Assembly: GCA_037447655.1 (NCBI GenBank)
Contig: JBBHKE010002290.1
Coordinates: forward strand, 225,322-289,321
DNA length: 64,000 bases
Direction of reading: 5' to 3'
Source of the DNA: Zygnema cylindricum
Lineage: Eukaryota; Streptophyta; Zygnematophyceae; Zygnematales; Zygnemataceae
The number at the start of each line of letters is the position of its first letter. Position 1 is the stretch's first letter. The translations under genes and the position numbers were made by a program. Under the pieces are notes generated by a model. It was given only the letters and a program-made list of their open reading frames with translations, was not told the origin of the DNA and made no database searches. Shown piece by piece: positions 4,511 to 52,759 of the stretch.

Positions 4511-4716
4511 GTGCCTGTAGAAACTAATGGATTTATTAGTATTTTCTAGGTCTAAATAGAAATAGAAAGAAGCCGAGGCAGTCTATCTCTAACTTCTCTC
4601 TCCAACTCTCAAACTTGTTGCAGTCACTGAGAAGTTGGAGAGGAAGCTAGAGCCATGGCTACCTTGGCTATCCTGAAGTTTACGGGAAATTAATACTAGG
4701 GTTTATTTATTTAATT

Positions 4717-4812
4717 AAAAGTTAAGCGCCGGCGACAGGATTTGATCCCTGTACCTACCGGCCGGCAGATATGAAATAGCCGGTAGCCTTAGCCGTTAGG
4801 TCTAGCTATAGT
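4717..4812 (-). ncRNA. Antisense tRNA-like Pol III unit in the A1 5' LTR
   Basis: The minus strand reads an A-box-like TAGACCTAACGGCTAAGGCT (4804-4785), then a B-box-like GGATCAAATCC (4748-4738), then TTTT (4720-4717). A box/B box spacing is about 37 nt, within the tRNA range. The B box sits in a small hairpin (ACAGG/CCTGT) enclosed by a GCCGGC/GCCGGC stem. It is not a normal tRNA, because no 7-nt anticodon loop could be drawn. The copy in the 3' LTR is at 10111-10206. Confidence 0.6.
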
Positions 4813-5322
4813 GATACGTACCATTTAGTTTGATAATGATTTAAAGATGTATACGTACGATAAATTCATTTAACTGTTACGGATTACGGGATACATAGAT
4901 CCGGTACGGATGACGGTACGGATTACGAATCAATACCGCGCATTTGTTTCGGAAGTGAAATAAATACCGCGCATGTATTTATTACGGCTAAGATTAAATC
5001 TGAATTTAATCGGACGGCCGGAATTAGCGCCGAGATCGCGGAGGGAGATTTCGGCGGTTTGTGGCCATCGCCACATCAGATGACACGTGGCAAAATTCCG
5101 TTGGATTGTAGAATCTCCGGAGATTATGGCACCGAATCCGGATTTGACATGTGTCGACATTTAGGCCATGTCGTACAATGTCCGTACTGAAAGTACACCA
5201 GCGGCTGTACTTTTGCGTACGGAACTCAATTCTGATTGGTTCCGTACATCAGTAGATAGAGTCTGTGAGAGAGATAGAACTTAGAAAAATTAGAAGATAG
5301 GACCCTCTCTCCCAGAGAGCTT

Positions 5323-5332
5323 CTGTACAAAA
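5323..5332 (+). promoter_or_regulatory. TATA-like box of the A LTR
   Basis: TGTACAAAAG here aligns with TGTATAAAAG at 17839 (A3), CTATAAAGG at 18847 (B) and TATAAAT on the minus strand at 31393-31387 (C). The position is about 30 nt before the hairpin array in each. This suggests the transcription start, and so the start of the R region, lies near 5355. Confidence 0.55.
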
Positions 5333-5359
5333 GGTCAACTTTGACCCTCCATAACTTAC

Positions 5360-5463
5360 TGCTCAGGGGAGCAAATTCAGAGATTCTTTTTGCTACTGAC
5401 TCACGGGAGTCTTGCCTTCACAGGGGTGCAGGTTGTCAGGGTTTTTGTCTGCCAGGGTGGCAG
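5360..5463 (+). other. RNA hairpin array at the predicted 5' end of the A1 transcript
   Basis: Four short inverted repeats follow each other: TGCTC-AGGG-GAGCA (5360-5373), GACTC/GAGTC (5398-5411), an imperfect CTTCAC/GTGCAG (about 5416-5431), and CTGCC-AGGGT-GGCAG (5449-5463). The third is perfect in A2. Loops are AGGG or close variants. The array covers most of the predicted leader upstream of gag. Confidence 0.65.
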
Positions 5464-5536
5464 TTATTTTTGCTGGAACACAAAGGGGTCAGGATTATCC
5501 TAGAGGCTTCTTGGAAGCTGTCCACTCTGAGGACTT

Positions 5537-6406
5537 ATGGAGGTCTCAGAGTTACAGGTTATGGGCCCACCCTCTAGGGTACCAATCTTTAATGGAACTG
5601 GCTTCATATACTGGGAAAGTATGATGATTGGAGCTCTATGCGAAAAAAGGTTTTGGGGGATAGTGAGTGGACGATTGGGGCGTCCATCAAGTCTTGGAAT
5701 TCCTCCAGGGTTTGGAGGAAGCAGATTCACCAGGAAAGAGGATTCACCTTCAACGGAGGAAACAAAGGAAGGAGAGGTGGTGGACAAAGGAAAGGAGAAG
5801 GAGGCGACCACACCAATAGCAACTGGTTTAGCATTCATGTCACCTATTCCGAGGAACGAGGAGAATGATACTGAAACCTGGGACTTCAACAATATGGCGG
5901 CAAAGCACTTCATCCTACGCCATCTCACTCAAGGACTTGCATGTCCTCATTTGCAGGTAGAAAGAGCATCCGATCTTTGGATGACTCTCATAGAGATGTA
6001 CCGAAGTGGTACGATTCAGCAACAACAGTTGGCTGATCAGAAAGTTAAGGAGTATGTATACAAAGGGGGAAATATATTGGATTTTTGCAATGAGCTTGCT
6101 ACACTCTTCATGGAGCTACACAGTGCGGGAAAAGATTTTAGTGAAAAAGAAAAGGTTAACTGTTTACTGATGAGGTTACCTGATGATTTCGTGAACATAG
6201 TTTACCGTGTGCAGGACTTGCCTGACTCAAGGTGGATATGGAACTCAGTGGTAGGGATGATTCTCGTTCAAGAGAATACAATTGAGATCCGAAGGGGAGG
6301 AAAGAGTGGCCAAGCCTTGGCAACAGCGACTGATTGGAGGAATAGGGATTCCCGAAAACCGGTTGGAAACTATGGGGGTAGGGAGCAGAAAAAAACAGGC
6401 AGATGA
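5537..6406 (+). CDS. Copia A1 gag (capsid and nucleocapsid N-terminal part)
   Basis: This 289-codon frame is the gag part of the Copia polyprotein, which packages the RNA in cytoplasmic particles. The chosen ATG lies inside the 5' LTR (20 bp before its end). The next codons are read across the primer-binding site and give VMGPPSR. The middle part (about residues 110-240) has the UBN2-type gag pattern: repeated W/L positions, QQQLADQKVKEYVY, FCNELATLFMEL and LLMRLPDDF. The frame closes at 6404-6406, just after a run of seven A. A2 has two fewer A there and one base less overall, and reads straight into pol. The break is therefore most likely a mutation rather than programmed frameshifting. Confidence 0.88.
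   Translation: MEVSELQVMGPPSRVPIFNGTGFIYWESMMIGALCEKRFWGIVSGRLGRPSSLGIPPGFGGSRFTRKEDSPSTEETKEGEVVDKGKEKEATTPIATGLAFMSPIPRNEENDTETWDFNNMAAKHFILRHLTQGLACPHLQVERASDLWMTLIEMYRSGTIQQQQLADQKVKEYVYKGGNILDFCNELATLFMELHSAGKDFSEKEKVNCLLMRLPDDFVNIVYRVQDLPDSRWIWNSVVGMILVQENTIEIRRGGKSGQALATATDWRNRDSRKPVGNYGGREQKKTGR
5558..5571 (+). promoter_or_regulatory. Primer-binding site matching the initiator tRNA-Met anticodon arm
   Basis: GTTATGGGCCCACC begins one base after the LTR end. Its reverse complement, GGTGGGCCCATAAC, is the anticodon stem and loop of plant initiator tRNA-Met as recalled (anticodon CAT). This is the arrangement known for Drosophila copia, which is primed by a tRNA half. The ATG inside the site is the complement of the anticodon and is in frame with gag. 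Confidence 0.75.
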
Positions 6407-9400
6407 GTTCGAACCAAGGGCTCCCAAAGGTCTATGTCATTTTTGTAAGAAACCGGGGCACTATATGGCAGAGTGCACTAAGCTAACCGAGCTTTGGTTA
6501 AAGGAGGGGCAGACCGGTGGTACCCCGAGAGGAAAGAAAAAGGCCCTTGTCACACAGGTACTTGAGGCTGAATCCGAGGACGAGGACGATGAGCTCCTTT
6601 TGGATGAGGAGTTGGAGGCGAAAAAAGAGGTCGAAATTCCACGGAGGCAGAAATGTGCTTACGGTGGATTGAAAGGTGAAGCAGGCTGGATTGTAGATTC
6701 AGGTGCCTCCATGCACATGTGTAAGGATAGACACCTGTTCACTAAGATAAGAAAGATTCCCACCGTAGAGATAGAGTACGGGGATGGGAGGATAGTCACC
6801 ACTACTCTTGTAGGATCGGTAGATCTAAAAGTGTTAGTAGAAGGAAAGACATCCATATTAACATTCTCCGATGTATTGTTTATTCCGGAGCTGAACAAAA
6901 ATCTTATCTCTACATCAGTAATAAATGATAAGGGTTTTTTTACTAGCATTAGGGAAGGAGTCTTTACTGCTAGTTTTGAGGATGATGTCTATTTCATTGC
7001 TGAGAAAGGTAGCCATGGGATGTTTAGGATGATCTTAAGTAATGAAAAAAAGAAACTTTACTATGCTGGTGTTCATGATATTATGATGTGGCATAAGAGG
7101 CTTGGGCATGTGAATCTAGATAAGTTAAGAGAGATGAAAAAGATGGGAGTGGCGGAAGGGATTCAGTTCAGTGAGAGTGATGATATAAGTGATTGTAGTG
7201 GATGTGCTCAAGGTAAAGCACACAGATTACCCTTTCCTAAAACAGCCACCTATAAGGGAGAAAAACTTCTAGATCTAGTACACACAGATATTTGGGGACC
7301 GGCTAGAGTGCCCTCACCGGGGGGGAAGAGATTTATGATGACTATAACTGATGATTGGTCTCGGTATTCCCGGGTATATTTTTTGAAAAACAAGTCCGAA
7401 GCTGAGGATTGTTTTAGACAATATAAAGCATGGAGCGAAAAACTCCATGAAACTCCAATCAAGAGAGTAAGGAGTGACAATGGTGGAGAGTATACTTCTA
7501 ACCAGTTTGAGGATTTTCTGAGGGAAGATGGGGTTCAACACCAAAAGACAGTTCCAGAAAATCCGGAACAGAATGGGGTAGCTGAAAGGTTAAATAGAAC
7601 ACTAAGTGATAGTGCTAGAAGTATGTTGTCAGATAAAAAGATAGGAAAAAGGTTTTGGGCAGAAGCAATGAACTGTGCTAATTACCTCAAGAATAGAGTT
7701 CTTACTTCAGCTATAAAAGATCAAACACCTTATGAGAGATGGACAGGCCGGAAACCAGACATATCTCACTTAAAGGTTTTCGGTAGTCAAGTATTCAGTC
7801 TAGATACTGATCGGTCCAATTGGAAGCTAGATCCTAAAGGAAAACCGGGATACTTATTAGGATATGATGAAGATGTTAAAGGATATAGAGTTTATGATTT
7901 AAAAAGGGAAGATATAATCTTAGTAAAGCATCTAGTAGTTATGGATGAAGGAAAGTCTGTGGATCCCTTCAAATATACAAAGTCAGTAAAAATCAGATTT
8001 GAGTCAGAAAATTCCGATGACTTTGAGCTTCCTAACTATCCAGGTTTTAGAGAAGATGACATTCTTGCAGGAACAAATCAGACCGAAAAGGACTCGGCTG
8101 TGGAAACTCCAGTGACAACTCTACTCGAAGCGGAAGACATGGTGGAAATTGATTCGGGATCAAGGGATAGGGGAGAAGCCGAGTTTGTTCGAAAGAATCC
8201 ACGAGAACCATCTATTCCGGCATCAGATTTTGAGGGGGGGAGGAGAAGTAGCAAAAGACTGCAAGAAAAACAGGTTAATAACAAGGTAACTAAACTATCT
8301 CATCAAGATGAACCTCAATCTTATAAAGAGGCGATGACTTGTCCAGAAAGAAACCGGTGGAAGACAGCCATCAATGAGGAGATGGCTTCAATCATGGCAG
8401 CCGATACTTGGGAGCTGGTGGACTGTCCACCTAACCGAAAACCAATTGGTTGTAAGTGGGTCTTCAAATTAAAACTGAACCCAGATAACACAATCGAACG
8501 CTACAAGGCCAGATTAGTGGCAAAGGGATTTACACAAAAGGAAGGAATTGACTACGAGGAAACCTTTGCCCCGGTGGTCAGATTTCCCTCCGTCCGCATA
8601 CTTCTCAGTTTAGCAGCGGCGGAAGACATGGAAGTGCATCAGATGGACATCAAGACAGCCTTTCTGCATGGAGAATTGGAAGAGGAGATCTTCATGCGAC
8701 AACCCGAAGGTTTTGTGGAGGAAGGAGAGGAGAGTAAGGTATGCCGGCTGATTAAATCTCTTTATGGTTTGAAACAGGCACCTCGACAATGGAATAAGAA
8801 GCTTGATGAGTTTTTTACCGGTGTGGGATATATTCGGATCAGCTCAGATCACTCAATCTATGTTTTTGAAGATGAGGAAGGTTTGATATTTATTGCAATT
8901 TATGTTGATGATTTGCTTGTATTAAGTAAATCAATGGAAAAAATTAACAAACTGAAAACCGATCTTAAGGGGAGATTTGAAATGAAGGATATGGGAGAAG
9001 CAAGATATATTTTGGGAATTCAAGTAGAGAGAGACCGGAAAAGGAAAATTATAAAACTGACTCAAAAAGAAGCAATAGGGAACATGCTTGAAAAATTTCA
9101 AATGGATAAAGCTAATAGTTGTACAACTCCAATGGAGTTGAAGAAGGGAAGTGAGGGGAGTGAGGAAGAAGGAGTCATAGTCTTAGACGAGGAATTATCT
9201 CTTGATGAACAGAAGTTCATGCAGACTATTCCTTACAGGCAAGTAGTGGGAAGTCTAATCTATTTTATGAATTGTACCTGGCCGGATTTAGCTGCAGCTG
9301 TAGGAGTGCTAAGTAGAAGTCTAAATGCTCCCACTAAAAGGGATTGGGAAGCAGCTAAGAGAGTCCTTAGATATTTGGTAGGAACTAGAGATCTATGGTT

Positions 9401-9896
9401 GCATTTGGGTGGGGAGAATACTGACATCACTACTTGGAGTGATGCCAGTTATGGTGATGCTCCGATGAGGAGATGTACTTCTGGATATGTATTATATGTG
9501 GGTGATGGGGCTTGCTGTTGGAGTAGCAAACAGCAAAAGGTTATTGCTCAGTCCACCATGGAGGCTGAGTATATGGCCTCTTGCTCTGCTGTAAAAGAAT
9601 TTATGTGGGTCAAGTCTTTGCTTGGTGAGCTTGGTCACCTTAAGAGTGGTGTGCAGAAAATATTTTGTGATAATCAGGCAGCAATCGCTATTTCTGCCAA
9701 TCCTAAACACCATTTTAAAGCCAAACACATGGACATCAGACTCAGCTTTGTTAGAGAGAAAGTAGAAAACAAAATAATCAGTTTAGAGTACAGACCAGAT
9801 AGTGAGATGGTAGCAGATATGATGACCAAACCTGTGCCTTCCCCTAAGCTAATTTTTTGCAGGGAGAAGTGTGGTCTGAAATTAAAGATTGACTAG
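6384..9896 (+). CDS. Copia A1 pol (knuckle, protease, integrase, RT, RNase H)
   Basis: One open frame of about 1170 codons, shifted +1 relative to gag. In order: CCHC knuckle (6435-6476); retropepsin with DSGA (6696-6707); integrase HHCC domain (about 7085-7210); catalytic core with D in HTDIWG (7287), D in SDNGG (7476) and E in VAERLN (7584); RT with YGLKQAPRQW near 8762 and YVDD at 8901-8912; RNase H with SDASYGD, QSTMEAEYMA and CDNQAA; end ADMMTKP. All catalytic motifs are present. One difference from A2 and A3 is NCTWPDL for NCTRPDL near 9275. The protein would copy and integrate the element. Start 6384 is only where this frame takes over from gag. Confidence 0.93.
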   Translation, partial: SRKKQADEFEPRAPKGLCHFCKKPGHYMAECTKLTELWLKEGQTGGTPRGKKKALVTQVLEAESEDEDDELLLDEELEAKKEVEIPRRQKCAYGGLKGEAGWIVDSGASMHMCKDRHLFTKIRKIPTVEIEYGDGRIVTTTLVGSVDLKVLVEGKTSILTFSDVLFIPELNKNLISTSVINDKGFFTSIREGVFTASFEDDVYFIAEKGSHGMFRMILSNEKKKLYYAGVHDIMMWHKRLGHVNLDKLREMKKMGVAEGIQFSESDDISDCSGCAQGKAHRLPFPKTATYKGEKLLDLVHTDIWGPARVPSPGGKRFMMTITDDWSRYSRVYFLKNKSEAEDCFRQYKAWSEKLHETPIKRVRSDNGGEYTSNQFEDFLREDGVQHQKTVPENPEQNGVAERLNRTLSDSARSMLSDKKIGKRFWAEAMNCANYLKNRVLTSAIKDQTPYERWTGRKPDISHLKVFGSQVFSLDTDRSNWKLDPKGKPGYLLGYDEDVKGYRVYDLKREDIILVKHLVVMDEGKSVDPFKYTKSVKIRFESENSDDFELPNYPGFREDDILAGTNQTEKDSAVETPVTTLLEAEDMVEIDSGSRDRGEAEFVRKNPREPSIPASDFEGGRRSSKRLQEKQVNNKVTKLSHQDEPQSYKEAMTCPERNRWKTAINEEMASIMAADTWELVDCPPNRKPIGCKWVFKLKLNPDNTIERYKARLVAKGFTQKEGIDYEETFAPVVRFPSVRILLSLAAAEDMEVHQMDIKTAFLHGELEEEIFMRQPEGFVEEGEESKVCRLIKSLYGLKQAPRQWNKKLDEFFTGVGYIRISSDHSIYVFEDEEGLIFIAIYVDDLLVLSKSMEKINKLKTDLKGRFEMKDMGEARYILGIQVERDRKRKIIKLTQKEAIGNMLEKFQMDKANSCTTPMELKKGSEGSEEEGVIVLDEELSLDEQKFMQTIPYRQVVGSLIYFMNCTWPDLAAAVGVLSRSLNAPTKRDWEAAKRVLRYLVGTRDLWLHLGGENTDITTWSDASYGDAPMRRCTSGYVLYVGDGACCWSSKQQKVIAQSTMEAEYMASCSAVKEFMWVKSLLGELGHLKSGVQKIFCDNQAAIAISANPKHHFKAKHMDIRLSFVREKVENKIISLEYRPDSEMVADMMTKPVPSPKLIFCREKCGLKLKID

Positions 9897-9909
9897 AAAA
9901 TAAGGGGAG

Positions 9910-10950
9910 TGTAGAAACTAATGGATTTATTAGTATTTTCTAGGTCTAAATAGAAATAGAAAGAAGCCGAGGCAGTCTATCTCTAACTTCTCTCTCCAAC
10001 TCTCAAACTTGTTGCAGTCACTGAGAAGTTAGAGAGGAAGCTAGAGCCATGGCTACCTTGGCTATCCTGAAGTTTACGGGAATTTAATACTAGGGTTTAT
10101 TTATTTAATTAAAAGTTAAGCGCCGGCGACAGGATTTGATCCCTGTACCTACCGGCTGGCAGATAGGAAATAGCCGGTAGCCTTAGCCGTTAGGTCTAGC
10201 TATAGTGATACGTACCATTTAGTTTGATAATGATTTAAAGATGTATACGTACGATAAATTCATTTAACTGTTACGGATTACGGGATACATAGATCCGGTA
10301 CGGATGACGGTACGGATTACGAATCAATACCGCGCATTTGTTTCGGAAGTGAAATAAATACCGCGCATGTATTTATTACGGCTAAGATTAAATCTGAATT
10401 TAATCGGACGGCCGGAATTAGCGCCGAGATCGCGGAGGGAGATTTCGGCGGTTTGTGGCCATCGCCACATCGGATGACACGTGGCGAAATTCCGTTGGAT
10501 TGTAGAATCTCCGGAGATTATGGCACCGAATCCGGATTTGACATGTGTCGACATTTAGGCCATGTCGTACAATGTCCGTACTGAAAGTACACCAGCGGTT
10601 GTACTTTTGCGTACGGAACTCAATTCTGATTGGTTCCGTACATCAGTAGATAGAGTCTGTGAGAGAGATAGGACTTAGAAAAATTAGAAGATAGGACCCT
10701 CTCTCCCAGAGAGCTTCTGTACAAAAGGTCAACTTTGACCCTCCATAACTTGCTGCTCAGGGGAGCAAATTCAGAGATTCTTTTTGCTACTGACTCAGGG
10801 GAGTCTTGCCTTCACAGGGGTGCAGGTTGTCAGGGTTTTTGTCTGCCAGGGTGGCAGTTATTTTTGCTGGAACACAAAGGGGTCAGGATTATCCTAGAGG
10901 CTTCTTGGAAGCTGTCCACTCTGAGGACTTATGGAGGTCTCAGAGTTACA
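9910..10950 (+). repeat. 3' LTR of A1
   Basis: 1041 bp, matching 4516-5556 with about ten differences. The polypurine tract AATAAGGGGAG precedes it. The antisense tRNA-like unit is at about 10111-10206 (B box 10132-10142) and the hairpin array at about 10754-10857; here the second hairpin is a perfect GACTC-AGGG-GAGTC. Confidence 0.95.
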
Positions 10951-17087: not shown

Positions 17088-18070
17088 ACCTCTAACTTCT
17101 CTCTCCAACTCTCAAACTTGTTGCAGTCACTGAGAAATTGGAGAGGAAGCTAGAGCCATGGCTACCTAGGCTATCCTGAGGTTTACGGGAAATTTATATT
17201 AGTTAAGGTTTATTTAATTAAAATGTATGTGCCGGCGACAGGAATTGATCCTTGTACCTACCGGCCGGCAGACAGGAAATAGCCGGTAGCCTTAGCCGTT
17301 AAGTCTAGGATTAATGTTACGTAGTATATAGGTTGATAATTATTTAAATATGTATACGTACGATTATTCATTTAACTATAATAGATTACGGGATACATAG
17401 ATCCGGTAATATATAAAGTACGGATTACGGTACGGACTAAAAATCAATACCACGCATTTGTTTCGTAAGTGAAACAAATACCGCGCATGTATTTATTACA
17501 GCTACGATTAAATTACATTCTAATCGGACGGCCGTAATTAGCGCCGAGATCGCGGAGGAAAATTTCGGCGGTTTGTGGCCATCGCCACATCGGATGACGC
17601 ATGGCGAAATTACGTTGGATCGTGGAATCTCCGGAGATTATGGCACCGAATCCGGATATGACATGTGTCAACATTTAGGCCATGTCGTACAATGTTCGTA
17701 CCTAAAGTACACCGGCAGCTGTACTTTTGCGTACGGAACTCAATTCTGATTGGTTCCGTACATCAGTAGATAGAGTCTGTGAGAGAGATAGGACTTAGAA
17801 AAATTTAGAAGATAGGACCCTCTCTCCTAGAGAGCTTCTGTATAAAAGGTCAAACTTGACCCTCCATAACTTACTGCTCGAGGAGCAAATTCAGAGATTC
17901 TTTTTGCTATCGACTCAGGGGAGTCTTGCCTTCACAGGGGTGCAGGTGGTCAGGGTTTTTGTCTTCCAGGGTGGCAGTTATTTTTGCTGAAACACAAAGG
18001 GGTCGGGATTATCCTAGAGGCTTCTTGGAAGCTGTCTACTCTGAGGACTTATGGAGGTCTCAGAGTTGCA
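17088..18070 (+). repeat. Family A LTR, 5' truncated
   Basis: It starts at ACCTCTAACTTCTC, about 95 bp into the A LTR, and ends in GAGTTGCA. It keeps the antisense tRNA-like unit (about 17212-17310), a good TATAAAA at 17841-17847 and the hairpin array. Confidence 0.85.
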
Positions 18071-18165
18071 CTCCGGTCCCCATACTTGTTGTAGTCACTG
18101 AAGACCAGAGAGAGAGCTAGAGCCATGGCTGTCTAAAGAGGATAGGCTAATTCGTAGTTTGTACC

Positions 18166-18245
18166 AAAATGGTTGTGACGGTTCCAGGATTTGATCCTGG
18201 TACCTACATCCTATAATAGACATTAGCTTTAGCCTATAGCTTGAG
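18166..18245 (-). ncRNA. Antisense tRNA-like unit 1 of LTR B
   Basis: Minus strand: D-arm-like AGCT-ATAGGCTAA-AGCT (an A box containing GG, about 18242-18224), a T-arm-like CCAGG-ATCAAAT-CCTGG with 5-bp stem and 7-nt loop (B box GGATCAAATCC, 18197-18187), and TTTT at 18169-18166. The second tandem copy is at 19316-19395. Confidence 0.6.
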
Positions 18246-18323
18246 TAAACAGTGGTATGTGTAGGGTACAATAGGTATTTATAAGTGTACAAGAAGAGAG
18301 TTCTAACAAACTAACAAATAACC

Positions 18324-18405
18324 AAAAACTGCTCTAGACCAGATTTGAACCATGGTCTGTGGTTACATTTGTAGAGGTAAGCCTTAACCAATAAGGCGTT
18401 ATCGA
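18324..18405 (-). ncRNA. Antisense tRNA-like unit 2 of LTR B
   Basis: Minus strand: D arm GCCTT-ATTGGTT-AAGGC (about 18397-18381), B box GGTTCAAATC (18351-18342, a match to GGTTCRANTC), and TTTTT at 18328-18324. The second tandem copy is at about 19474-19555 and a better-preserved relative lies at 33506-33590. The anticodon arm is not convincing. Confidence 0.62.
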
Positions 18406-19220
18406 AACGATACACGTGACGGGTTTCATAAATACATAATCATTAACGCAACAGTTAATTACCAGCAAACTAACCAAAAGGAGCAATTTCTGCATGTACG
18501 CGAATCTGAACCGTGTAAAATATGTTTTGATCGGACGGCCGGCATTATAGCCGCCACGCGAAGTGAGATTTTTGGCGGCATACGGAGATAGCGTCACGCG
18601 GTGCCACATGGCGCCACATTATTTGATACCGGAGAAGATGGGAGGAGGAACCATGGCTTCCGATTTGACAGGTGTCACCTTGTAGACCTTGTCGTACAAT
18701 TGTCGTACAATAAGTACATCGCCCATTCTACCTTCTTGTACTATATAATGTTCTTATTGGACTAGGGTTTAGTAGTAGGTAGTCGTGAGTAGGCAGACCG
18801 AGACTTAGTAATATTTAGGTACCTCTCTCTCTAAGAGAGCTTGTAACTATAAAGGTCATCTTTGACCAGCCATAACTTACTGCTCGGGTGAGCAAATTCA
18901 GTGATTCTTTTTGCTGCGCACTCAGGGGAGTCCAAGCTAAACAACGGTGTAGTTGGTCATAGTCTTTGCGTGCCAGGGTGGCACTTATTCTGTGGGAAAA
19001 TCACAATGGGGAATATTGTCCAAAACACATATTCAAGCTTTGCATTCTGTGGTGGAACTGAGCACACAGAAGGTCTTCTCTTCCTTGGGGTGCAGATTGT
19101 CAGGGTTTTTGTCTTCCAGGGTGGCAGTTATTTTTGCTGAAACACAAAGGGGTCGGGATTATCCTAGAGGCTTCTTGGAATCTGTCTACTTTGAGGACTT
19201 ATGGAGGACTCAGAGTTGCA

Positions 19221-20172
19221 CTCCGGTCCCCATACTTGTTGTAGTCACTGAAGACCAGAGAGAGAGCTAGAGCCATGGCTGTCTAAAGAGGATAGGCTAA
19301 TTCGTAGTTTGTACCAAAATGGTTGTGACGGTTCCAGGATTTGATCCTGGTACCTACATCCTATAATAGACGTTAGCTTTAGCCTATAGCTTGAGTAAAC
19401 AGTGGTATGTGTAGGGTACAATAGGTATTTATAAGTGTACAAGAAGAGAGTTCTAACAAACTAACAAATAACCAAAAACTGCTCTAGACCAGATTTGAAC
19501 CATGGTCTGTGGTTACATTTGTAGAGGTAAGCCTTAACCAATAAGGCGTTATCGAAACGATACACGTGACGGGTTTCATAAATACATAATCATTAACGCA
19601 ACAGTTAATTACCAGCAAACTAACCAAAAGGAGCAATTTCTGCATGTACGCGAATCTGAACCGTGTAAAATATGTTTTGATCGGACGACCGACATTATAG
19701 CCGCCACGCGAAGTGAGATTTTTGGCGGCATACGGAGATAGCGTCACGCGGTGCCACGTGGCGCCACATTATTTGATACCGGAGAAGATGGGAGGAGGAA
19801 CCATGGCTTCCGATTTGACAGGTGTCACCTTGTAGACCTTGTCGTACAATTGTCGTACAATAAGTACATCGCCCATTCTACCTTCTTGTACTATATAATG
19901 TTCTTATTGGACTAGGGTTTAGTAGTAGGTAGTCGTGAGTAGGCAGACCGAGACTTAGTAATATTTAGGTACCTCTCTCTCTAAGAGAGCTTGTAACTAT
20001 AAAGGTCATCTTTGACCAGCCATAACTTACTGCTCGGGTGAGCAAATTCAGTGATTCTTTTTGCTGCGCAGTCAGGAGAGTCCAAGCTACACAACGGTGT
20101 AGTTCGTCATAGTCTTTGCGTGCCAGGGTGGCACTTATTCTGTGGGAAATTCACAATGGGGAATATTGTCCA
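19221..20172 (+). repeat. Chimeric B/A LTR unit, tandem copy 2, 3' truncated
   Basis: Copy of 18071-19220 with few differences. It is cut at GAATATTGTCCA, where Copia integrase sequence begins. Here the third hairpin is perfect: CTACAC-AACG-GTGTAG (20087-20102). Confidence 0.85.
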
Positions 20173-22511
20173 GAAAACCCGGAACAGAATGGGGTAGCTG
20201 AAAGGTTAAATAGAACACTAAGTGATAGTGCTAGAAGTATGTTGTCAGATAAGAAGATAGGAAAAAGGTTTTGGGTAGAAGCAATGAACTGTGCTAATTA
20301 CCTCAAAAATAGAGTTCTTACTTCAGCTATAAAAGATCAAACACCTTATGAGAGATGGACAGGCCAGAAACCAGACATATCTCACTTAAAGGTTTTCGGC
20401 AGTAAAGTATTCAGTCTAGATACAGATCGGTCTAATTGGAAGCTAGATCCTAAAGGAAAACCGGGATACTTATTAGGATATGATGAGGATGTTAAAGGAT
20501 ATAGAGTTTATGATCTAAAAATGAGAAGATATAATATTAGTAAAGCATCTAAGTAGTTATGGATGAAGGAAAGTCTGTGGATCCCTTCAAATATACAAAG
20601 TCAGTACAAATCAGATATAAGTCTGAAAATTCCGATGACTTTGAGCTTCCTAACTATACAGGTTTTAGAGATGACATTCTTGCAGGTACAAATCAAACCG
20701 AAAAGGACTCGGCTGTGGAAACTTCAGTGACAACTCTACTCGACGCGGAAGACGTGGCGGAAATTGATTCGGAATCAAGGGATAGGGGGGAAACCGAGTT
20801 TGTTCGAAAGAATCCACGAGAATCATCTATTCCGACCTTAGATTTTGAGGGGGAAAGGAGAAGTAGCAAAAGATTGCAAGAAAAACATGTTAATAACAAG
20901 GTAACTAAACTATCTCATCAAGATGAACCTCAAACTTATGGAGAGGCTATGACTTGTCTAGAAAGAAATCGGTGGAATACAGCCATCAATGAGGAGATGG
21001 CCTCAATTATTGCAGCCGATACTTGGGAGCTGGTGGATTTTCCACCTAATCAAAAACCAATCGGTTGTAAGTGGGTTTTCAAATTAAAACTGAACCCAGA
21101 TAACACAATCGAGCGCTACAAAGCCCAATTAATTGTAAAGAGATTTACACAAAAGGAGGGAATTGACTACGATGAAACCTTTGCCTCGGTGGTCTGATTT
21201 CCCTCAGTCCGCATACTACTCAGCCTAGCAGCAGCGGAAGACATGGAAGTGCACCAAATGGAAATCAAGACAACTTTTTTGCATGGAGAATTCGAAGAGG
21301 AGATCTTCATGCGACAACCCGAAGGGTTTGTGGAGGAAGGAGAGGAGAGTAAGGTATGCCGACTGATTAAATCTCTTTATTGTTTGAAACAGACGCCTCG
21401 ACAGTGAAATAAGAAGCTTGATGAGTTTCTTACCGGTCTGGGATATATCAGGATCAGCTCAGATCACTCAATCTATGTTTTCGAAGATGAAGAATGTTTT
21501 ATATAAATTACAATTTATGTTGATGATTTGCTTGTTTTAAGTAATTCAATGGAAAAAATTAATAAACTGAAAATCGATCTTAAGGGGAGATTTGAAATGA
21601 AGGATATAGGAGAAGCAAAATATATTTTGGGAATTCAAGTAGAGAGAGACCGAAAAAGAAAAATTATAAGATTGACTCAAAAAGAAGCAATAGGGAGCAT
21701 GCTTGAAAAAATTCAAATGGATAAAACTAATAGTTGTACAACTCCAATGGAGTTGAAGAAGGGAAGTGAAGGGAGTGAGGAAGAAGGAGTCATAGTCTTA
21801 GACGAGGAATTATCTCCTGATGAACAAAAGTTCATGCAGACTATTCCTTACAGGCAAGTAGTGGGAAGTCTAATCTATTTTATCAATTGTACCCGGCTTG
21901 ATTTAGCTGCAGCTGTAGGAGTGCTGAGTAGAATTCTAAATGCTCCCACTTAGAGGGATAAGGAGGCAGCTGAGAGAGTCCTTAGATATTTGATAGGAAC
22001 TAGGGACCAATGGTTGCATTTGGGTGGGGAGAATACTAACATCACTACTTGGAGTGATGCCAGTTATGGTGATGCTCCGATGAGGAGATGCACTTCTGGA
22101 TATGTATTATATGTGGGTGATGGGGCTTGCTGTTGGAGTAGCAAACAGCAAAAAGTTATTGCTCAGTCCACCATGGAGGCTGAGTGTATGGCCTCTTGCT
22201 CTGCTGTAAAAGAATTGATGTGGGTCAAGTCTTTGCTAGGTGAGCTTGGTCACCTTAAGGGTGGTGTGCAAATTTCTTTTTGTGATAATCAGGCAACAGT
22301 CGCTATATCTGCCAATCCTAAACATCATTTTGAAGCCAAACACATGGACATCAGACTCAGTTTTGTTAGAGAGAAAGTAGAAAAGAAAATAATCAGTTTA
22401 GAGCACCGACTAAATAGTGAGATGGTAGCAGATATGATGACCAAACCTGTGCTTTCCCCTAAGCTAATTTTCTGCAAGGAGAAGTGTGGTATGAAATTAA
22501 AGATTGGCTAG
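20173..22511 (+). pseudogene. Copia A3 pol, 3' half, decayed
   Basis: It starts within the integrase core at NPEQNGVAERLNRT and runs through the integrase C-terminus, RT and RNase H to ADMMTKPVLSPK. Against A1 and A2 it has at least one frameshift (about 20520-20560) and several stops (about 21195, 21410, 21505, 21952). Changed RT codons include TFASVV for TFAPVV and LYCLKQTP for LYGLKQAP. It is clearly older than A1 and A2. Confidence 0.9.
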
Positions 22512-22524
22512 AAAATAACAGGAG

Positions 22525-23577
22525 TGTAGAAATTAATGGTCCATTTTAAGTATTTTCTAGGTCTAAATAGAAATATAAAAAGAAGCCGAGGCAATCTACC
22601 TCTAACTTCTCTCTCCAACTCTCAAACTTGTCGCATTCATTAAAAAATTGGAGAGGGAGCTAGAGCCATGGCTACCTAGGCTATCTAGAGGTTTACGAGA
22701 AATATATATTAGTTAGGGGTTTATTTACTAAAAGGTATGTGCCGACCACAGGATTTGATCCTGGTGCCTATCGGCCAGCAGACAGCCGGTAGCCGGTAGC
22801 CTTAGCCGTTAAGTCTAGAACTAGTTTTCCGTACTATATGGTTTGATAATTAATTAAACATTATCAGGTAGGATAATTCATTTAACTGTAACTGTTTACG
22901 GGATACATAGATCCATTGAATGTTAAAGTACGGATTACGGTACGGATAAGAAACCAATACCGCGCATTTATTTCTTTAATGAAACGAATATCGCGCATGT
23001 ATTTATTACAGCTACGATTAAATGTGAATTTAATCGGACGGCTAGAATTAACGCCGAGATCGGGGAAAAGGATTTCGATGGTTTGTGGTCATCGCAACAT
23101 CGGATGACACGTGGCGGAATGACATTGGATCGCGGCATCTCCGAGGATTAAGGGAGCGAATCCGGACATACCACGTGTCGACATTTAGGCCATGTCGTAC
23201 AGTGTCCGTACAAAAAGTACACCGGCAGCTGTACTTTTGTGTACGGAATGTAATATGATTGGTTCCGTACATTAGTAGATAGAGTCTGTGAGAGAGATAG
23301 GACTTAGAAAACTTAGGAGATAGGATCCTCTCTCCTAGAGAGCTTCGGTACAAAAGGTCAACTTTGACCCTCCATAACTTATTGCTCAGCGGAGCAAATT
23401 CATAGATTCTTTTTGTTATCGACTCAGGGGAGTCTTGCCTTCACGAGGTGAAGTTGGTCAGGTTATTGTTTGCCAAGGTGGCGGTTATTTTTGCTGAAAC
23501 ACAATGGGGTCAGGGTTATCCTAGAGGCTTCTTGGAAGCTGTCCACTCTGAGGACTTATGGAGGTCTCAGAGTTTCA
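22525..23577 (+). repeat. 3' LTR of A3
   Basis: 1053 bp, from TGTAGAAATT to GAGTTTCA, preceded by an altered polypurine tract (AATAACAGGAG). The antisense tRNA-like unit is at about 22733-22828, with B box GGATCAAATCC near 22760-22750 and an AAAA (minus TTTT) just left of it. Confidence 0.92.
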
Positions 23578-27980: not shown

Positions 27981-29160
27981 TGAAACTCTAAGACCTCCAT
28001 TGGCCCTCAGAGTAAGCAGATCCAAAGAAGCTAATCTAGATAGTGCGACTCCTAACTTGATATAAACCCAAATGACTGACCCCTTGACAATCAGAACCCA
28101 AATATAGATTCACCCCTGTGAAATAAGACTTTGTGTGTGGTCAGTTCCACCACAAAATGCAAAGTTAGAATATGAGATTTGGACACATTCACCCACTTTG
28201 ACTTTACCTTTAAAATGCAGCCTTCCTGGCAGACAAAAACTCTGACCGACTACACCCCTATGTAGCCTGGACTGCCCTGAGTTTGCAGCAAAAAAAATCA
28301 CTGAAAATTGTCAAGTAAATTGATAGTTATGGCTGCCCAAAGTTAGCCATTTATACAAGATGCTCTCTGGGAGAGGCGACTACCTACTCAAAATATTCCA
28401 AGTCCTATTCTCACTCTAAGACCCTATCTACTGACGTACGGCACCAATCACTTTACTGTACTGTACAGATAAGTACATGTGCCGGTGTACTTTCAGTACG
28501 AGAATCGTACGATATGGCTGAAATATCGACACATGTCATATATCTATTTGTTCCCGTAATCTTCGGTGTCGCCGCAATCCAATGTTGACGTGCCACGTGT
28601 CATCCTATGTGGCGATGACCGCAAACCGCCAAAAGTACATATCCCGTGATCGCGGCGCCTATCGTGGCCGTCCGATCAAATCCGGCTAGATTTCTAGCCG
28701 TTGAAAAAAGACGCGCGGTATTTGTTTCGCGGTCGAACCAAATGCGCGGTATCAGTTTCAATAAAGAAATCCGTACTCCGTACTATCCATAACTGTATCT
28801 ATGCAATACGTATATATTTCCAATTAAATGAACTAGTCTACGTGTAACTATTTAAATATATGTCAAACCCCTATATCGTAACACTAGCTCTAGTCTAAAC
28901 GGCTAAAGTCACCGACTAAGGGCAGATTGACGGACGGTAGGTACCAGGATCAATTCCTGGGTCCGTCAAGTACCTTTTGGTAAGTCTTACTAATTTACCC
29001 CCTGTCTTTTCTAGAGAGCATAGGCAGCCATGGCTCTAGCTCCCTATCCAGCCTTCAGTGACTACAACAAGTGTGGGGGCTTGGAGAGGGGAGTTAAAGG
29101 CAGACTGCCTCTGCCTTTTTCTATCCTATTACAGACCTAGAAAATACACAAATATCTACA
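27981..29160 (-). repeat. 3' LTR of element C
   Basis: Minus strand starts TGTAGATATTTGTG and ends GAGTTTCA. It shares GTATTTTCTAGGTCT and the CTAGAGCCATGGCT block with families A and B. TATAAAT on the minus strand lies at 28355-28349. Confidence 0.92.
28885..28978 (+). ncRNA. tRNA-like unit, antisense to element C (3' LTR)
   Basis: Plus strand: A box CTAGTCTAAACGGCTAAAGTC (28890-28910), T-arm-like CCAGG-ATCAATT-CCTGG holding B box GGATCAATTCC (28947-28957), enclosed by a perfect 9-bp stem TTGACGGAC/GTCCGTCAA (28927-28935 with 28961-28969), then TTTT at 28975-28978. The outer stem differs from family A (GCCGGC) but stays paired. Confidence 0.65.
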
Positions 29161-29188
29161 CTCCCCTTATTTTCTAGTCTTTTCCCTT

Positions 29189-29740
29189 TTAACTTCCACA
29201 AAAAGTAAACAAACACCCCCTCCCCTTTTTCTTTTTCTTTTTCTTTTTTTCTTTTCTTTTCATAAAACTTAAGTATTTAACACAGTGCATTAAATGAACT
29301 GAAATAATAACTGCATCAGTCATTTTATTTAACATCCCACTTTTCATAAATCCGTGCAAAGATTTAATCCACTTCATCACTCTTTCATCCACACACAATC
29401 CGATTTCCCTCTTGCGATCCAAACAGCCAGCCACATCTCCAATCTGCAACATACACCCAGATGCTAACCCTTTTACAGGCACACCTTCATAAATACCATC
29501 ACTCCCTTTAGCGATGTCAAACCCATTACCCGCAAAAATTGAACTTTCCTCACTCTCTCCCATGGATTTCTTTCCACTCTCTCTTTCTAAATTTATTCCC
29601 AATAAATATTTCTCCTCCCCTAAACCTTTCGTTAAATATTCCTCTTCTCCCTTATCTTTAAAAACTCCTTGTAGTTTCACTTCTCCCCTCTCCTCGGAAT
29701 CCGTTGAGGTCTCCCTTTCCAACCAGTTTTCTGTTTCCAA
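29189..29740 (-). pseudogene. RT-end and RNase H remnant of element C
   Basis: Minus strand: GEEKYLLGINLERESGKK matches the Copia RT stretch GEAKYILGIQVERDRKRK. CMLQIGDVAGCLDRKREIG and MKWIKSLHGFMKSG recall the Copia RNase H stretches GYVLYVGDGACCWSSKQQK and MWVKSLLGEL. The catalytic residues are not preserved, so it is a passenger relic. Confidence 0.7.
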
Positions 29741-29899
29741 AATATCTATGAAACTATCCTCAATATTTTGAACTCTCTCAAGTATCTCCTCTCTCTTTAC
29801 TTCCCTTATACCTCCAAAAGCACATTGTTGCTTTCATGAAATTTCTCTGTGCTCTTCTCTCTTCCCCATACTACTAATCCGGAGAAGCTCTAAAATATA

Positions 29900-31036: not shown

Positions 31037-32199
31037 TTGGCCCTCAGAGTAAGCAGATCCAAAGAAGCTAATCTAGATAGTGCCGACTCCTAACTTGATA
31101 TAAACCCAAATGACTGACCCCTTGACAATCAGAACCCAAATATAGATTCACCCCTGTGAAATAAGACGTTCTGTGTGGTCAGTTCCACCACAGAATGCAA
31201 AGTTAGAATATGAGATTTGGACACATTCACCCACTTTGACTTTCCCTTTCAAATGCAGCCACCCTGGCAGACAAAAACTCTGACCGACTACACCCCTGTG
31301 TAGCTTGAACTCCCCTAAGTTTGCAGCAAAAAAAATCACTGAAAATGGTCAAGTAAATTGATAGTTATGGCTGCCCAAAGTTAGCCATTTATACAAGATG
31401 CTCTCTGGGAGAGGCGACTACCTACTCAAAATATTCTAAGTCCTATTCTCACTCTAAGACCCTATCTACTGACGTACGGCACCAATCACTTCACTGTACT
31501 GTACAGATAAGTACAGGTGCCTGTGTACTTTCTGTACGACAATCGTACGATATGGCTGAAATGTCAACACATGTCATATATCTATTTGTTCCCGTAATCT
31601 CCGGTGTCGCCGCAATCCAATGTTGACGTGCCATGTGTCATCCTATGTGGCGATGACTGCAAACCGCCAAAAGTACATATCCCACGATCGCGGCGCCTAT
31701 CGTGGCCGTCCGATCAAATCTGGCTATATTTCTAGCCGTTGAAAATAGACGCGCGGTATTTGTTTCGCGGTCGAACCAAATGCGTGGTATTCGTTTCAAT
31801 AAATAAATTTGTACTCCGTACTATCCATAACTGTATCTATGCAATACGTATATATTTCCAGTTAAATGAACTAGTCTAAGTGTAACTATCAAAATAATTA
31901 TCAAACCCCATGTGTCGTAATACCAGCTCTAGTCTAAATGGATAAAGTCACCGGCTAACCGCGATTTGACGGACGGTAGGTACCAGGATCAATTCCTGGG
32001 TCCGTCAAACACCTTTAGGTAAGTCTTACTAATTTACCCCCTGTCTTCTCTAGAGAGCTTAGGAAGTCATGGCTCTAGCTCCCTATCCAGCCTTCAGTGA
32101 CTACAACAAGTGTGGGGGCTTGGAGAGGGGAGTTAGAGGCAGACTGCCTTTGCCCTTTTCTATCCTATTACAAACCTAGAAAATACACAAATATCAACA
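31018..32199 (-). repeat. 5' LTR of element C
   Basis: 1182 bp; minus strand starts TGTTGATATTTG and ends AGTTCCA. TATAAAT on the minus strand at 31393-31387. Hairpins follow: AACT-TAGGGG-AGTT (31321-31308), CTACAC-AGGG-GTGTAG (31303-31288) and a GCC-AGGGT-GGC stem near 31260. The primer site GGTTATGGCC follows at 31017-31008. The tRNA-like unit lies at about 31924-32008 on the plus strand (B box 31986-31996); its T-run is reduced to TTT. Confidence 0.92.
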
Positions 32200-33311: not shown

Positions 33312-33988
33312 TGTTGAAATTTATGTATTTTCTAGGTCTGTATTGGAAAAATAAATAGAGTGTTGGAAAAAGTTAATTAACAGTTCACTTCTATATTTTA
33401 GTTAAAATGTAAAGAGAGAGAAAGAGAGGATCAAAGGCAGGCCATGGCTGCTGCGTCATTTAGAAGAAGGCAGAATGAATAAGAAGGAATTTTACTAGTT
33501 TTAGTAAAATAGTGCAACTGGCCGGATTTGAACTAGGGTCTGCAGATTACTATGTAGACATACGCCTTATCCATTAAGGCACTAACGAAAAGATACACAT
33601 GATATGTTTCACGCATATATATCTATTGATCTAAAGGACAAATTCGCAGCAGACTAACGAAAACGCGCATTTATCACTTCATGCATGGAAGCGAATCGAA
33701 GCCGTATAAATACAACTAATCGGACGGCCACCATTACAGCCGCCACCCACAATAAGCTTTCGGCGGCCTTTGGGGATAGCCTCACGAGGTGCCACGTGGA
33801 GCCACATTATTTAATATCGGAGAAGATGGGAGGAGGAACCATGGCTCCCAATTTGGCAAATGTCACCTTGTAGACCATGTCGTACAATGGCCGTACAATA
33901 AGTACATCGCCCATCGTACCTTCTTGTACTATATAGTGTTCCTATTAGACTAGGGTTTAGTAGTAGGTAGTCGTGAGTAGGCAGACCA
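33312..33988 (+). repeat. Family B LTR, 3' truncated
   Basis: It starts TGTTGAAATTTATG, shares GTATTTTCTAGGTCT with A and C, and matches the B part of 18071-19090. It cuts off the methyltransferase and is itself cut at 33989 by a family C LTR end. Confidence 0.85.
33506..33590 (-). ncRNA. Antisense tRNA-like unit of LTR B, best preserved
   Basis: Minus strand: A box TAGTGCCTTAATGGATAAGG (from 33584) with D arm GCCTT-AATGGAT-AAGGC, B box AGTTCAAATCC (33534-33524), then TTTT at 33509-33506. The A-box wording resembles tRNA-Arg genes (CCTAATGGATAAGGC), recalled from memory. The anticodon arm is not clean, so it is tRNA-derived rather than a tRNA gene. Confidence 0.65.
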
Positions 33989-45843: not shown

Positions 45844-46042
45844 TGTAGAAACTAATGGTTTTATTAGTATTTTCTAGGTCTGAAAAGAAATATAGAAGTC
45901 GAGGCAGTCTATCTCTAACTTCTCTCTCCAACTCTCAAACTTGTCGCAGTCACTGAGAAATTGGAGAGGAAGCTAGAGCCATGGCTACCTTGGCTATCCT
46001 GAGGTTTACGGGAATTTTATATTAGGGTTTATATATTTAATT

Positions 46043-46135
46043 AAAATGTATGTGCCGGCGGCAGGATTTGATCCTTGTACCTGCCGGCCGGCAGACTCAA
46101 TGTAGCCGGTAGCCTTAGCCGTTTCATCTAGCGGT
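46043..46135 (-). ncRNA. Antisense tRNA-like Pol III unit in the A2 5' LTR
   Basis: Minus strand: A box TAGATGAAACGGCTAAGGCT (46130-46111), B box GGATCAAATCC (46074-46064) and TTTT at 46046-46043. The copy in the 3' LTR is at about 51444-51536. The same parts lie in the same order as in A1, B and C. Confidence 0.62.
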
Positions 46136-46269
46136 AGTGTTACCTAGCATATAGTTTGATAATTATTTATATATGTATACAAGCGATAAACCATTTAACT
46201 AGAATTAATTACGCGATACATAGATCCAGTAATATGTAATGTACGACTTACGGTACGGACATAAATCAG

Positions 46270-46872: not shown

Positions 46873-47505
46873 ATGGAGGTCTCAGAGTTTCACGTTATGG
46901 GCCCACCCTCTAGGGTGCCAATATTTAATGGAACTGGCTTCATATACTGGGAAAGTATGATGATAGGAGCTCTATGCGAAAAAAGGTTTTGGGGGATAGT
47001 GAGTGGACGATTGGGGCGTCCATCAAGTCTTGGAATTCCTCCAGGGTTTAAAGGAAGCAGATTCACCAGGAAAGAGGATTCACCTTCAACGGAGGAAACA
47101 AAGGAAGGAGAGGTGGTGGACAAAGGAAAGGAGAAGGAAGCGACCACACCAATAGCAACTGGTTTAGCATTCATGTAACCTATTCCGAGGAACGAGGAGA
47201 ATGATACTGAAACCTTTGACTTCAACAATATGGCGGCAAAGCACTTCATCCTACGCCATCTCACTCAAGGACTTGCATGTCCTCATTTGCAAGTAGAGAG
47301 GGCATCCGATCTTTGGATGGCTCTCATAGAGATGTACCGAAGTGGTACGATTCAGCAACAACAGTTGGCTGATCAGAAAGTTAAGGAGTATGTATACAAA
47401 GGGGGAAATATGTTGGATTTTTGCAATGAGCTTGCTACACTCTTCATGGAGCTAGAGAGTGCGGGTAAAGTTTTTAGTGAAAAATAAAAAGTTAACTATT
47501 TACTA
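46873..47505 (+). pseudogene. gag of A2 with two in-frame stops
   Basis: It starts with ATG inside the LTR (MEVSEF) and crosses the primer site to VMGPPSR. Stops are TAA at 47176 (TCA in A1) and TAA at 47485 (GAA in A1). The rest matches A1 gag closely and continues in the same frame into pol, so the family normally makes one gag-pol reading frame. The copy cannot make full Gag. Confidence 0.9.
46894..46907 (+). promoter_or_regulatory. Primer-binding site of A2
   Basis: GTTATGGGCCCACC, one base after the LTR end, identical to the A1 site. See the A1 entry for the tRNA match. Confidence 0.75.
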
Positions 47506-51244: not shown

Positions 51245-52293
51245 TGTAGAAACTAATGGTTTTATTAGTATTTTCTAGGTCTGAAAAGAAATATAGAAGT
51301 CGAGGCAGTCTATCTCTAACTTCTCTCTCCAACTCTCAAACTTGTCGCAGTCACTGAGAAATTGGAGAGGAAGCTAGAGCCATGGCTACCTTGGCTATCC
51401 TGAGGTTTACGGGAATTTTATATTAGGGTTTATATATTTAATTAAAATGTATGTGCCGGCGGCAGGATTTGATCCTTGTTCCTGCCGGCCGGCAGACACA
51501 ATGTAGCCGGTAGCCTTAGCCGTTTCATCTAGCGGTAGTGTTACCTAGCATATAGTTTGATAATTATTTATATATGTATACAAGCGATAAACCATTTAAC
51601 TAGAATTAATTACGCGATACATAGATCCAGTAATATGTAATGTACGACTTACGGTACGGACATAAATCAGTACCGCGCATTTGTTTCGTAAATGAAACAA
51701 ATACCGCGCATGTATTTATTACGGCTACGATTAAAGCCGAATTTAATCGGACGGCCGGGATTAGCGCCGAGATCGCGGAGGAAGATTTCGGCGGTTTGTG
51801 GCCATCGCCACATCGGATGACGCGTGGCAAAATTCCGTTGGATTGTGGAAACTCCGGAGATTATGGCACCGAATCCGGATTTGACATGTGTCGACATTTT
51901 GGCCATGTCGTACAATATCCGTACATAAAGTACACCGGCAGCTGTACTTTTGCGTACGGAACTCAATTCTGATTGGTTCCGTACATCAGTAGATAGAGTC
52001 TGTGAGAGAGATAGGACTTAGAAAAATTAGAAGATAGGACCCTCTCTCCCAGAGAGCTTCTGTACAAAAGGTCAACTTTGACCCTCCATAACTTACTGCT
52101 CAGGGGAGCAAATTCAGAGATTCTTTTTGCTATCGACTCAGGGGAGTCTTGTCTTCACAGGGGTGAAGTTGGTCAGAGTTTTTGTCTGCCAGGGTGGCAG
52201 TTATTTTTGCTTAAACACAAAGGGGTCAGGATTATCCTAGAGGCTTCTTGGAAGCTGTCCACTCTGAGGACTTATGGAGGTCTCAGAGTTTCA
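51245..52293 (+). repeat. 3' LTR of A2
   Basis: 1049 bp, preceded by AATAAGGGGAG. Almost identical to 45844-46892. Confidence 0.96.
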
Positions 52294-52685: not shown

Positions 52686-52759
52686 ATCCCCTAAACCTTT
52701 AGGCTCTCTCAGCCACTAAGTCCACATGCCTCTCTACAAAACTTCAACTTAGGTGCAGG

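Follow-up and report, generated by a model that had tools for sequence, protein, structure and literature searches.

LTR retrotransposons are read as Pol II elements. The window analyzed here (the whole stretch of 64 kb, belonging to a genome that was searched as 353 Mb in 2689 contigs) is rich in retrotransposons, and in several of their LTRs the motifs of a tRNA-type Pol III promoter stand on the strand opposite to the element. The first-pass annotation had named six places with such antisense motifs, all of which were confirmed on the strand given, and the layout of an antisense tRNA-type promoter in the LTRs of an autonomous Copia element was borne out by the sequence. The question is what these motifs represent: a Pol III unit that acts on the element, a second binding segment for the primer tRNA, a relic of an old insertion, or a site for a different factor.

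The elements carrying the motifs belong to four families. A1 (4516-10950, plus strand) is an autonomous Copia element with the target site duplication (TSD) GTGCC, a 5' LTR at 4516..5556 and a 3' LTR at 9910..10950 (99.0% identical), and gag, integrase and RT domains recognized by Pfam; its gag (5531-6406) and pol (6261-9896) form two overlapping open frames. A2 has the TSD TTTAC, LTRs 99.8% identical and an open frame at 47488-51231. The third copy, A3 (17089-23577), is composite: an A LTR runs into duplicated tandem pieces of B LTR (about 18071-20168); these are joined to the internal region of an A element, present from the integrase part onward, and an A LTR forms the end. Family B is represented in the window by these tandem pieces within A3, and family X, the fourth beside A, B, and C, by one fragment. 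Family C is a short LTR element on the minus strand (27981-32199, TSD GAGCG, LTRs 94% identical), in which gag was the sole domain recognized by Pfam in the two pieces tested. LTR length here is about 1.04-1.18 kb. Relatives of the RT piece that were named by organism were all plants, with 37-50% identity, among the best 120 of 7740 relatives, which is a weak hint at the host. Two other segments of the window were noted: an isolated 138-bp start of an A2-type LTR (1026-1163, 99%), with no adjoining LTR match in the self-comparison, and a more distant Copia pol on the minus strand (52719-54968, about 65% DNA identity to A), near which the profile scan of the window gave no match to the units described below.

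Matches to the LTR queries come in pairs, about 3 kb apart for C and X and 3.2 kb apart for B. Given this pairing and the shortness of C with gag as its only recognized domain, the C, B, and X elements look like non-autonomous partners of A, with nearly the same primer-binding site (PBS). In the self-comparison, A, B, and C LTRs are about 70% identical over matched stretches, which argues for their common ancestry. The three families had been counted as repeated cases of the same arrangement; as their LTRs are homologous, one ancestral unit has been retained rather than gained three times.

Profile scans revealed two kinds of units in the window, ten of U1 and three of U2. U1 occupies a single antisense place in U3 of Copia family A, of families B and C, and of families D-H, known from partial copies. 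In the window it is present in ten LTR copies (two each for A1, A2, A3, C, and B); U2 occurs in the X fragment and the two B copies. A TATA-like TACAAAA in the A1 5' LTR (5326..5332, plus strand, about LTR position 811; TATAAAA in the A3 5' LTR) places the units, which lie at LTR positions of about 200-300, in U3. The A1 unit, directed towards the 5' end of the LTR, was found in the 5' LTR by both motif check and profile scan (4715..4812, minus strand) and comprises an A-box-like TAGACCTAACGG (4793..4804, one inserted base compared with the consensus), the B box GGATCAAATCC (4738..4748), and a T-run resembling a Pol III terminator (4717..4720), all on the minus strand. Further U1 units, all on the minus strand and found by the profile scan, are located at 10109..10206 (A1 3' LTR), 17218..17314 and 22727..22825 (A3 5' and 3' LTRs), and 46041..46137 and 51442..51538 (A2 5' and 3' LTRs). 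In C, the units are on the plus strand: the 3' LTR copy (28883..28981) has its B box at 28947-28957, its T-run at 28975-28978 and an outer hairpin of 9 bp, and the 5' LTR copy (31923..32020) reads CCTTTAGG. The B LTR carries U1 at 18163..18246 and U2 at 18319..18415, and its duplicate carries them at 19313..19396 and 19469..19565 (all minus strand; for U2 and for the duplicate by the profile scan). The profile scans placed the tRNA-Arg-like U2 of the X LTR fragment at 33501..33598 (minus strand); the X copy reads AGTTCAAATCC. Motifs reported earlier at 33590-33506 are present, and their assignment has been corrected to family X. The A-box part is weak in some units, with three mismatches in the U1 of B (B1).

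To what extent such motifs exceed chance was assessed with a strict set, an exact B box GGWTCRANNCC with an A box of at most three mismatches, optionally followed by TTTT within 45 nt. The two boxes together occur at 12 sites in the window, ten of which are U1 units (mean 1.5, maximum 5 in 30 shuffles). With TTTT added, nine sites are left, all U1, against a shuffle mean of 0.17 (maximum 2), which rules out a chance origin of the U1 motifs; since the U1 copies are related, the count speaks for one real unit, not for nine. The U2 units require one B-box mismatch to be found. At that setting there is no excess in the window (39 sites against a shuffle mean of 34.1, maximum 47), and with the T-run there are 22 sites against 9.6 (maximum 14); by motif counts alone, chance is not rejected for a single U2 unit. 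A boxes at tRNA spacing have two to three mismatches per unit in pre-set forms, their summed mismatch being 22 against 29.4 (p 0.0025, letter shuffles, kinship ignored), and the exact fit of most of them needs an inserted base, a form set after the A boxes had been seen. Neither Rfam nor ARAGORN at normal settings matched the units, and the candidate of a true tRNA gene was rejected on these grounds. Relaxed ARAGORN gave one same-strand overlap with a unit in two hits at -ps90, and three same-strand overlaps among 27 of 31 hits, mostly noise, at -ps80. The units are thus tRNA-like but not tRNA genes.

Searches of the genome with A1, C, B, and X queries gave at least 41, 40, 40, and 40 matches, respectively, out of 4165, 4497, 1373, and 1526 first-look candidates; as about 40 matches were scored per query, the samples favor close copies. 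After loci repeating the window (L001, L002, L029, L067) and hits above E 1e-9 had been dropped, 97 U1 and 34 U2 units were collected from the window and the fetched loci, and their retention counts lean upward, because the units were found by their own profile, mostly in loci fetched with unit-containing LTR queries. The type 2 Pol III B box GWTCRANNC is present in this collection: 81 of the 97 U1 units are exact to GGWTCRANNCC and 95 have at most one mismatch; the U2 B box is exact in 8 of 34, and its core GTTCAAATC is found in 26. A T-run had been described as usual behind the B box, and it is (TTTT within 40 nt in 96 of 97 U1 units; a T-run in 33 of 34 U2 units), with a loss in the C copy at 31923-32020. 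Five further lineages were detected in the flanks of the fetched loci, D (L059), E (L021), F (L026), G (L016), and H (L030), each with its unit inside a diverged LTR, which in matched stretches shares about 70-80% identity with A or C, and all seven extra units examined (lineages D-H, L007, and L051) lie within LTRs. At L007 (1300-1417), an A1 element has landed in a different A-type LTR, and the insertion lies about 20 bp from the 5' end of the U1 unit there; this is what a Pol III-targeting element would do, and it is one case.

Both kinds of units were compared with two general reference tRNA sequences, plant initiator tRNA-Met (iMet) and tRNA-Arg(UCU), against letter shuffles. The 3' half of U1 matches the reference iMet over 22-28 nt, F with 24 of 28; seven of eight units exceed all 300 shuffles, and for A1 p is 0.033. 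A54 is the hallmark of eukaryotic initiator tRNAs and gives the unusual GGATC. At T-loop position 60, where T is the usual B-box base, none of the ten lineages has the A of the reference iMet (T in nine, C in H). The X unit matches the reference tRNA-Arg(UCU) in the region of the D- and anticodon arms (score 44, shuffle maximum 24; for the X copy L085, 41 and 28). For the U2 of B (B2), the match to tRNA-Arg is weak (score 21, p 0.01), and an Arg-like A-box part is also seen in D (p 0.003). Directly 3' of the A1 LTR lies the PBS GGTTATGGGCCCACC (5557..5571, plus strand), of half-tRNA type and complementary to nt 25-39 of the reference iMet. Two elements each of B and X were inspected, and in all four the same PBS follows the LTR; that of A2 differs at the first base and that of C at two internal places. 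As PBS and U1 both match the reference iMet, reverse transcription is probably primed by half of an iMet, of which the elements also carry a part backwards in U3; by these matches U1 itself probably descends from iMet, the primer of the element.

Conservation between families was measured in seven LTR lineages (A1, A3b, C, D, E, F, and G) over C-LTR positions 60-520, with gaps counted as mismatches and E lacking about the first 100 positions; A2, which is near A1, and the partial H and B were aligned outside this count. The B box has a mean pairwise mismatch of 0.026 against 0.368 overall and is the 11-mer with the lowest mismatch, the top eight conserved 11-mers all belonging to the B box and T-arm (T-arm rank 0.009). 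The four T-run columns are invariant in all seven lineages, with neighboring columns at 0.57 and 0.29; 2.6% of 4-column windows reach the same conservation, and the terminator 8-mer ranks at 0.13. The A box is average (mismatch 0.374, rank 0.54), so that of the earlier expectation that A and B boxes would be the slowest-evolving part, the B box half stands, with no lower 11-mer, and the A box half does not. Slid jointly, the two boxes rank at 0.033 of 399 placements. Outer stem strands have a mismatch of 0.45-0.53, and the U1 sequence lying between B box and T-run evolves fast. Family by family, the U1 B box ranks at 0.049 (A-C), 0.014 (A-B), and 0.088 (B-C), and the terminator windows with their flanks at 0.463, 0.281, and 0.08. 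For U2, compared between B and X, the boxes rank at 0.25-0.28 (B box 0.253), the terminator at 0.813, and the whole unit at 0.949, so that U1 has to carry the argument. What these sequence comparisons show is where the unit lies, which way it is oriented, and that its B box and T-run are conserved.

Within families, the unit of A1 copies is little different from the LTR in variability (0.010 against 0.014). In C copies, variability is higher over the whole unit than over the LTR (0.067 against 0.046, 93rd percentile); by part, the B box (0.017, 14th percentile) and the terminator (0.014, 10th) vary little, the A box more (0.069, 83rd), and the middle most (0.128, 99.8th). That the unit in its entirety evolves most slowly within the LTR was rejected on this result and on the rank of the whole unit between lineages, 0.161 in the seven (0.388 for A-C). 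All parts of U1 in B copies are below the mean of 0.051, and for U2 of B copies variability is low in the T-run (0.0065), average in the B box (0.048), and high elsewhere. In X copies, the A box is low (0.031), and the B box and terminator are near or somewhat below the mean of 0.069.

Around the B box, the antisense strand can form a hairpin that has an outer helix of nine pairs, a bulge of 8 nt on the 5' side, a T-stem of five pairs, and a loop of 7 nt. It was first read from A and C, so the pair counts that follow lean towards it. In 62 units (61 distinct), 85.4% of cells are paired against 79.7% in shuffles, with 43 double changes against 14.5. With one row for each of the ten lineages, the values are 77.7% against 69.9% and 15 against 6.8; none of 500 shuffles reaches the observed pairing or double changes, slid versions of the hairpin reach at most 45.2%, and double changes occur in five of the nine outer pairs. 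Two of the five co-variation measures, the number of pairs with double changes and the number of further pair types, gave no excess, either in the 62 units (235 and 232 of 500 shuffles) or in the ten lineages (191 and 192). These counts indicate signs of hairpin co-variation across lineages. The claim that the outer stem changes in sequence and stays paired holds for A and C and fails for B1, where the stem is unpaired and the hairpin lost; RNAalifold did not recover the outer helix. Folding z-scores of the antisense units range from -3.5 (C), -2.9 (D), -2.2 (B1 and A2), and -1.5 (F and A1) to -1.2 (G), -1.1 (A3b), -0.8 (B2), and +0.25 (X), six of the ten being given as above -1.5, and the sense strands of C (-2.3) and A1 (-1.3) come close to their antisense counterparts in this respect. 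G-U and A-C pairs in the outer helix occur at 14:13, without strand bias; the T-stem leans towards G-U (15:3), and the ratio of 36:6 in the first helix comes mostly from one site. Which strand's RNA, if any, is selected is not told by the fold alone. Selection on all parts, as had been proposed, agrees with the B box, the T-run, and the signs of hairpin co-variation, and disagrees with the average A box and the more variable C unit.

B box and T-run are the parts a Pol III unit needs most strictly, and the sequence between them may drift. Their conservation around a drifting middle, together with the tRNA-Arg-like unit of X, favors a Pol III/TFIIIC role. Our leading reading, which we hold tentatively and put a little short of evenly probable, is that the LTRs of one superfamily of Copia elements carry in U3 an antisense, tRNA-derived type 2 Pol III unit that acts on the element. 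In such a unit, the A box is loose, the B box is strongly retained and sits in a hairpin resembling a T-arm, and a T-run follows the B box at 12-19 nt. From this layout we infer that TFIIIC would bind the B box of U1 and that Pol III would start near the A box. The predicted transcript, about 90-100 nt long and with U at its end, would be complementary to the U3 part that lies at the 3' end of the mRNA made from the element. Any effect on the element might come from this short antisense RNA with its hairpin, or from U3 being occupied by TFIIIC, as a boundary or insulator. The average A box, the unremarkable conservation of the whole unit, and the position of the B box within a dyad count against a Pol III unit.

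The strongest rival is a second primer-binding segment as in Ty3. Under this explanation, the primer iMet would anneal through its T-arm to the U3 segment near the 3' terminus of the genomic RNA, which would help primer placement or join the RNA ends, and the units would look like a tRNA because they complement the primer. Besides the PBS complementary to nt 25-39 of the reference iMet, U3 complements nt 42-63 with 16-19 Watson-Crick and one to three G-U pairs of 22 in the ten lineages (17-20 in all; best in B and F with 19 and one G-U), and in Ty3 a 3' part of the PBS, located in U3, pairs with the T-psi-C arm of iMet (PMC5371799). A nonamer near the A1 LTR end, CCACTCTGA (5522-5530, 26 bases ahead of the PBS), complements nt 2-10 of the reference iMet, which is chance-level by itself. 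Pairing with the primer accounts for the orientation of the unit, the strong conservation of B box and T-arm, and the average A box, but it leaves the invariant T-run unexplained, iMet bases 46 and 60 are mismatched to U3 in all ten lineages, and the half-tRNA priming implied by the PBS would use the 5' half of the tRNA, not the T-arm half. Moreover, X, with the same PBS in both elements looked at, has a tRNA-Arg-like unit where the iMet complement would stand, and no iMet complement above the shuffle maximum was found in six X LTR sequences; this control is soft, as it covered LTR stretches only and its scoring failed to list U1 of A1 and, for U1 of A3b, came no higher than the shuffle maximum. 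On balance, we consider primer pairing unlikely. If it is nevertheless the correct explanation, Ty3-type bipartite binding would be extended to half-tRNA-primed Copia elements.

A lower probability is given to a fossil, left by a tRNA or SINE that had entered U3 of the ancestor and was carried along without function, its core being kept by chance and by the kinship of the LTRs. The average conservation of the whole unit, the loss of the outer stem in B, and the loose constraint on U2 would all be expected of a relic. Against a relic stand the B box and T-run, which are the LTR's extremes of conservation on either side of fast-evolving sequence, and the double changes of the hairpin; we consider this explanation improbable. 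Least probable, and in our view doubtful, is a dyad-symmetric site CCAGGAT-CAA-ATCCTGG in U3, tRNA-like by descent or coincidence, which a dimeric Pol II factor could bind: the conserved 17-mer around the B box is an inverted repeat in most lineages (H is cut there at its 3' end) and the U3 blocks GAGCCATGGCT and GATCGGACGGC are likewise among the conserved 11-mers, but the T-run, the A-box-like part, the outer hairpin, and the second tRNA-like unit in X are left unexplained.

With regard to the antisense Pol III unit, the presence of a tRNA-Arg-like unit at the corresponding place in X suggests that what is kept is a Pol III unit and not one particular sequence. In its fullest form, the proposal would be that in one superfamily of Copia elements a Pol III gene antisense to the element has been maintained in U3 while the LTRs diverged extensively, derived first from the 3' half of the primer iMet and then joined (B) or replaced (X) by a tRNA-Arg unit, with the hairpin RNA serving as a self-encoded regulator or the TFIIIC site as a portable boundary; this whole chain of events is possible but rather unlikely. 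If the Pol III reading is true, each autonomous Copia copy would own a small RNA or a TFIIIC boundary, and abundant 90-100 nt RNAs, siRNAs, or boundary marks would be predicted at many loci.

Several known systems resemble parts of this arrangement. A Pol III transcript, the 'let' RNA, has reportedly been found to arise from U3 in the LTR of Moloney MLV, an autonomous element. For autonomous Copia elements, word searches of open-access literature found no title or abstract describing LTRs with an antisense unit of tRNA type. Tiny non-autonomous TRIMs and foamy viruses have been described as carrying Pol III promoters in their LTRs (PMC10886601, PMC8674446). Cassandra and Ajax share with the present units a Pol III-type promoter within the LTR; as described in the Helenus paper, theirs is derived from 5S, belongs to non-autonomous elements, and serves as promoter for the element RNA (PMC10886601). 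Ty5 and Drosophila copia have a PBS complementary to the anticodon region of iMet and half-tRNA priming, and the passages on them in the sources used mention no antisense tRNA-like unit in U3 (PMC5371799, PMC10886601). Ty3 shares the iMet primer and a U3 segment complementary to the T-arm, but according to the account used here it primes from the tRNA 3' end (PMC5371799), whereas here the PBS is complementary to the anticodon region, bases 46 and 60 are mismatched throughout, a T-run is present, and X has a tRNA-Arg-like unit.

The closest known counterparts, as far as these sources describe them, are Helenus (TRIMp3) and the U3 Pol III cassettes of foamy viruses. Helenus TRIMs carry in their LTRs a tRNA-like sequence with conserved A and B boxes, proposed to promote transcription of the element itself; they have no genes, measure 311-1263 bp with a longest LTR of 323 bp, and show a 5-bp TSD in plant and fungal members and a PBS for the anticodon region of iMet in most fungal members (Kojima 2024, PMC10886601). 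Their autonomous partners are argued to use Pol II, and not a few Repbase LTRs are said to resemble part of a tRNA, the study having followed TRIMs under 1000 bp only (PMC10886601). The first-pass annotation knew of no described unit of this tRNA type; Helenus shows that tRNA-like sequence in LTRs was known, in short, non-autonomous elements (PMC10886601). The likeness is a tRNA-derived A/B-box sequence in the LTR, with identities here drawn from general reference tRNAs and a weak A box. The differences are that A1 spans 4516-10950 with gag and pol, that the LTRs here are about 1.04-1.18 kb long, and that the unit is antisense with a T-run of its own and a TATA-like box near LTR position 811; the main text on Helenus does not contain the word 'antisense' or spell out the orientation of its unit (PMC10886601). 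In foamy viruses, A/B-box Pol III miRNA cassettes with a hairpin stand in U3 of an autonomous retroelement, and their miRNAs have been shown (PMC8674446). These are animal retroviruses, whereas the hairpin predicted here is short (9 + 5 bp).
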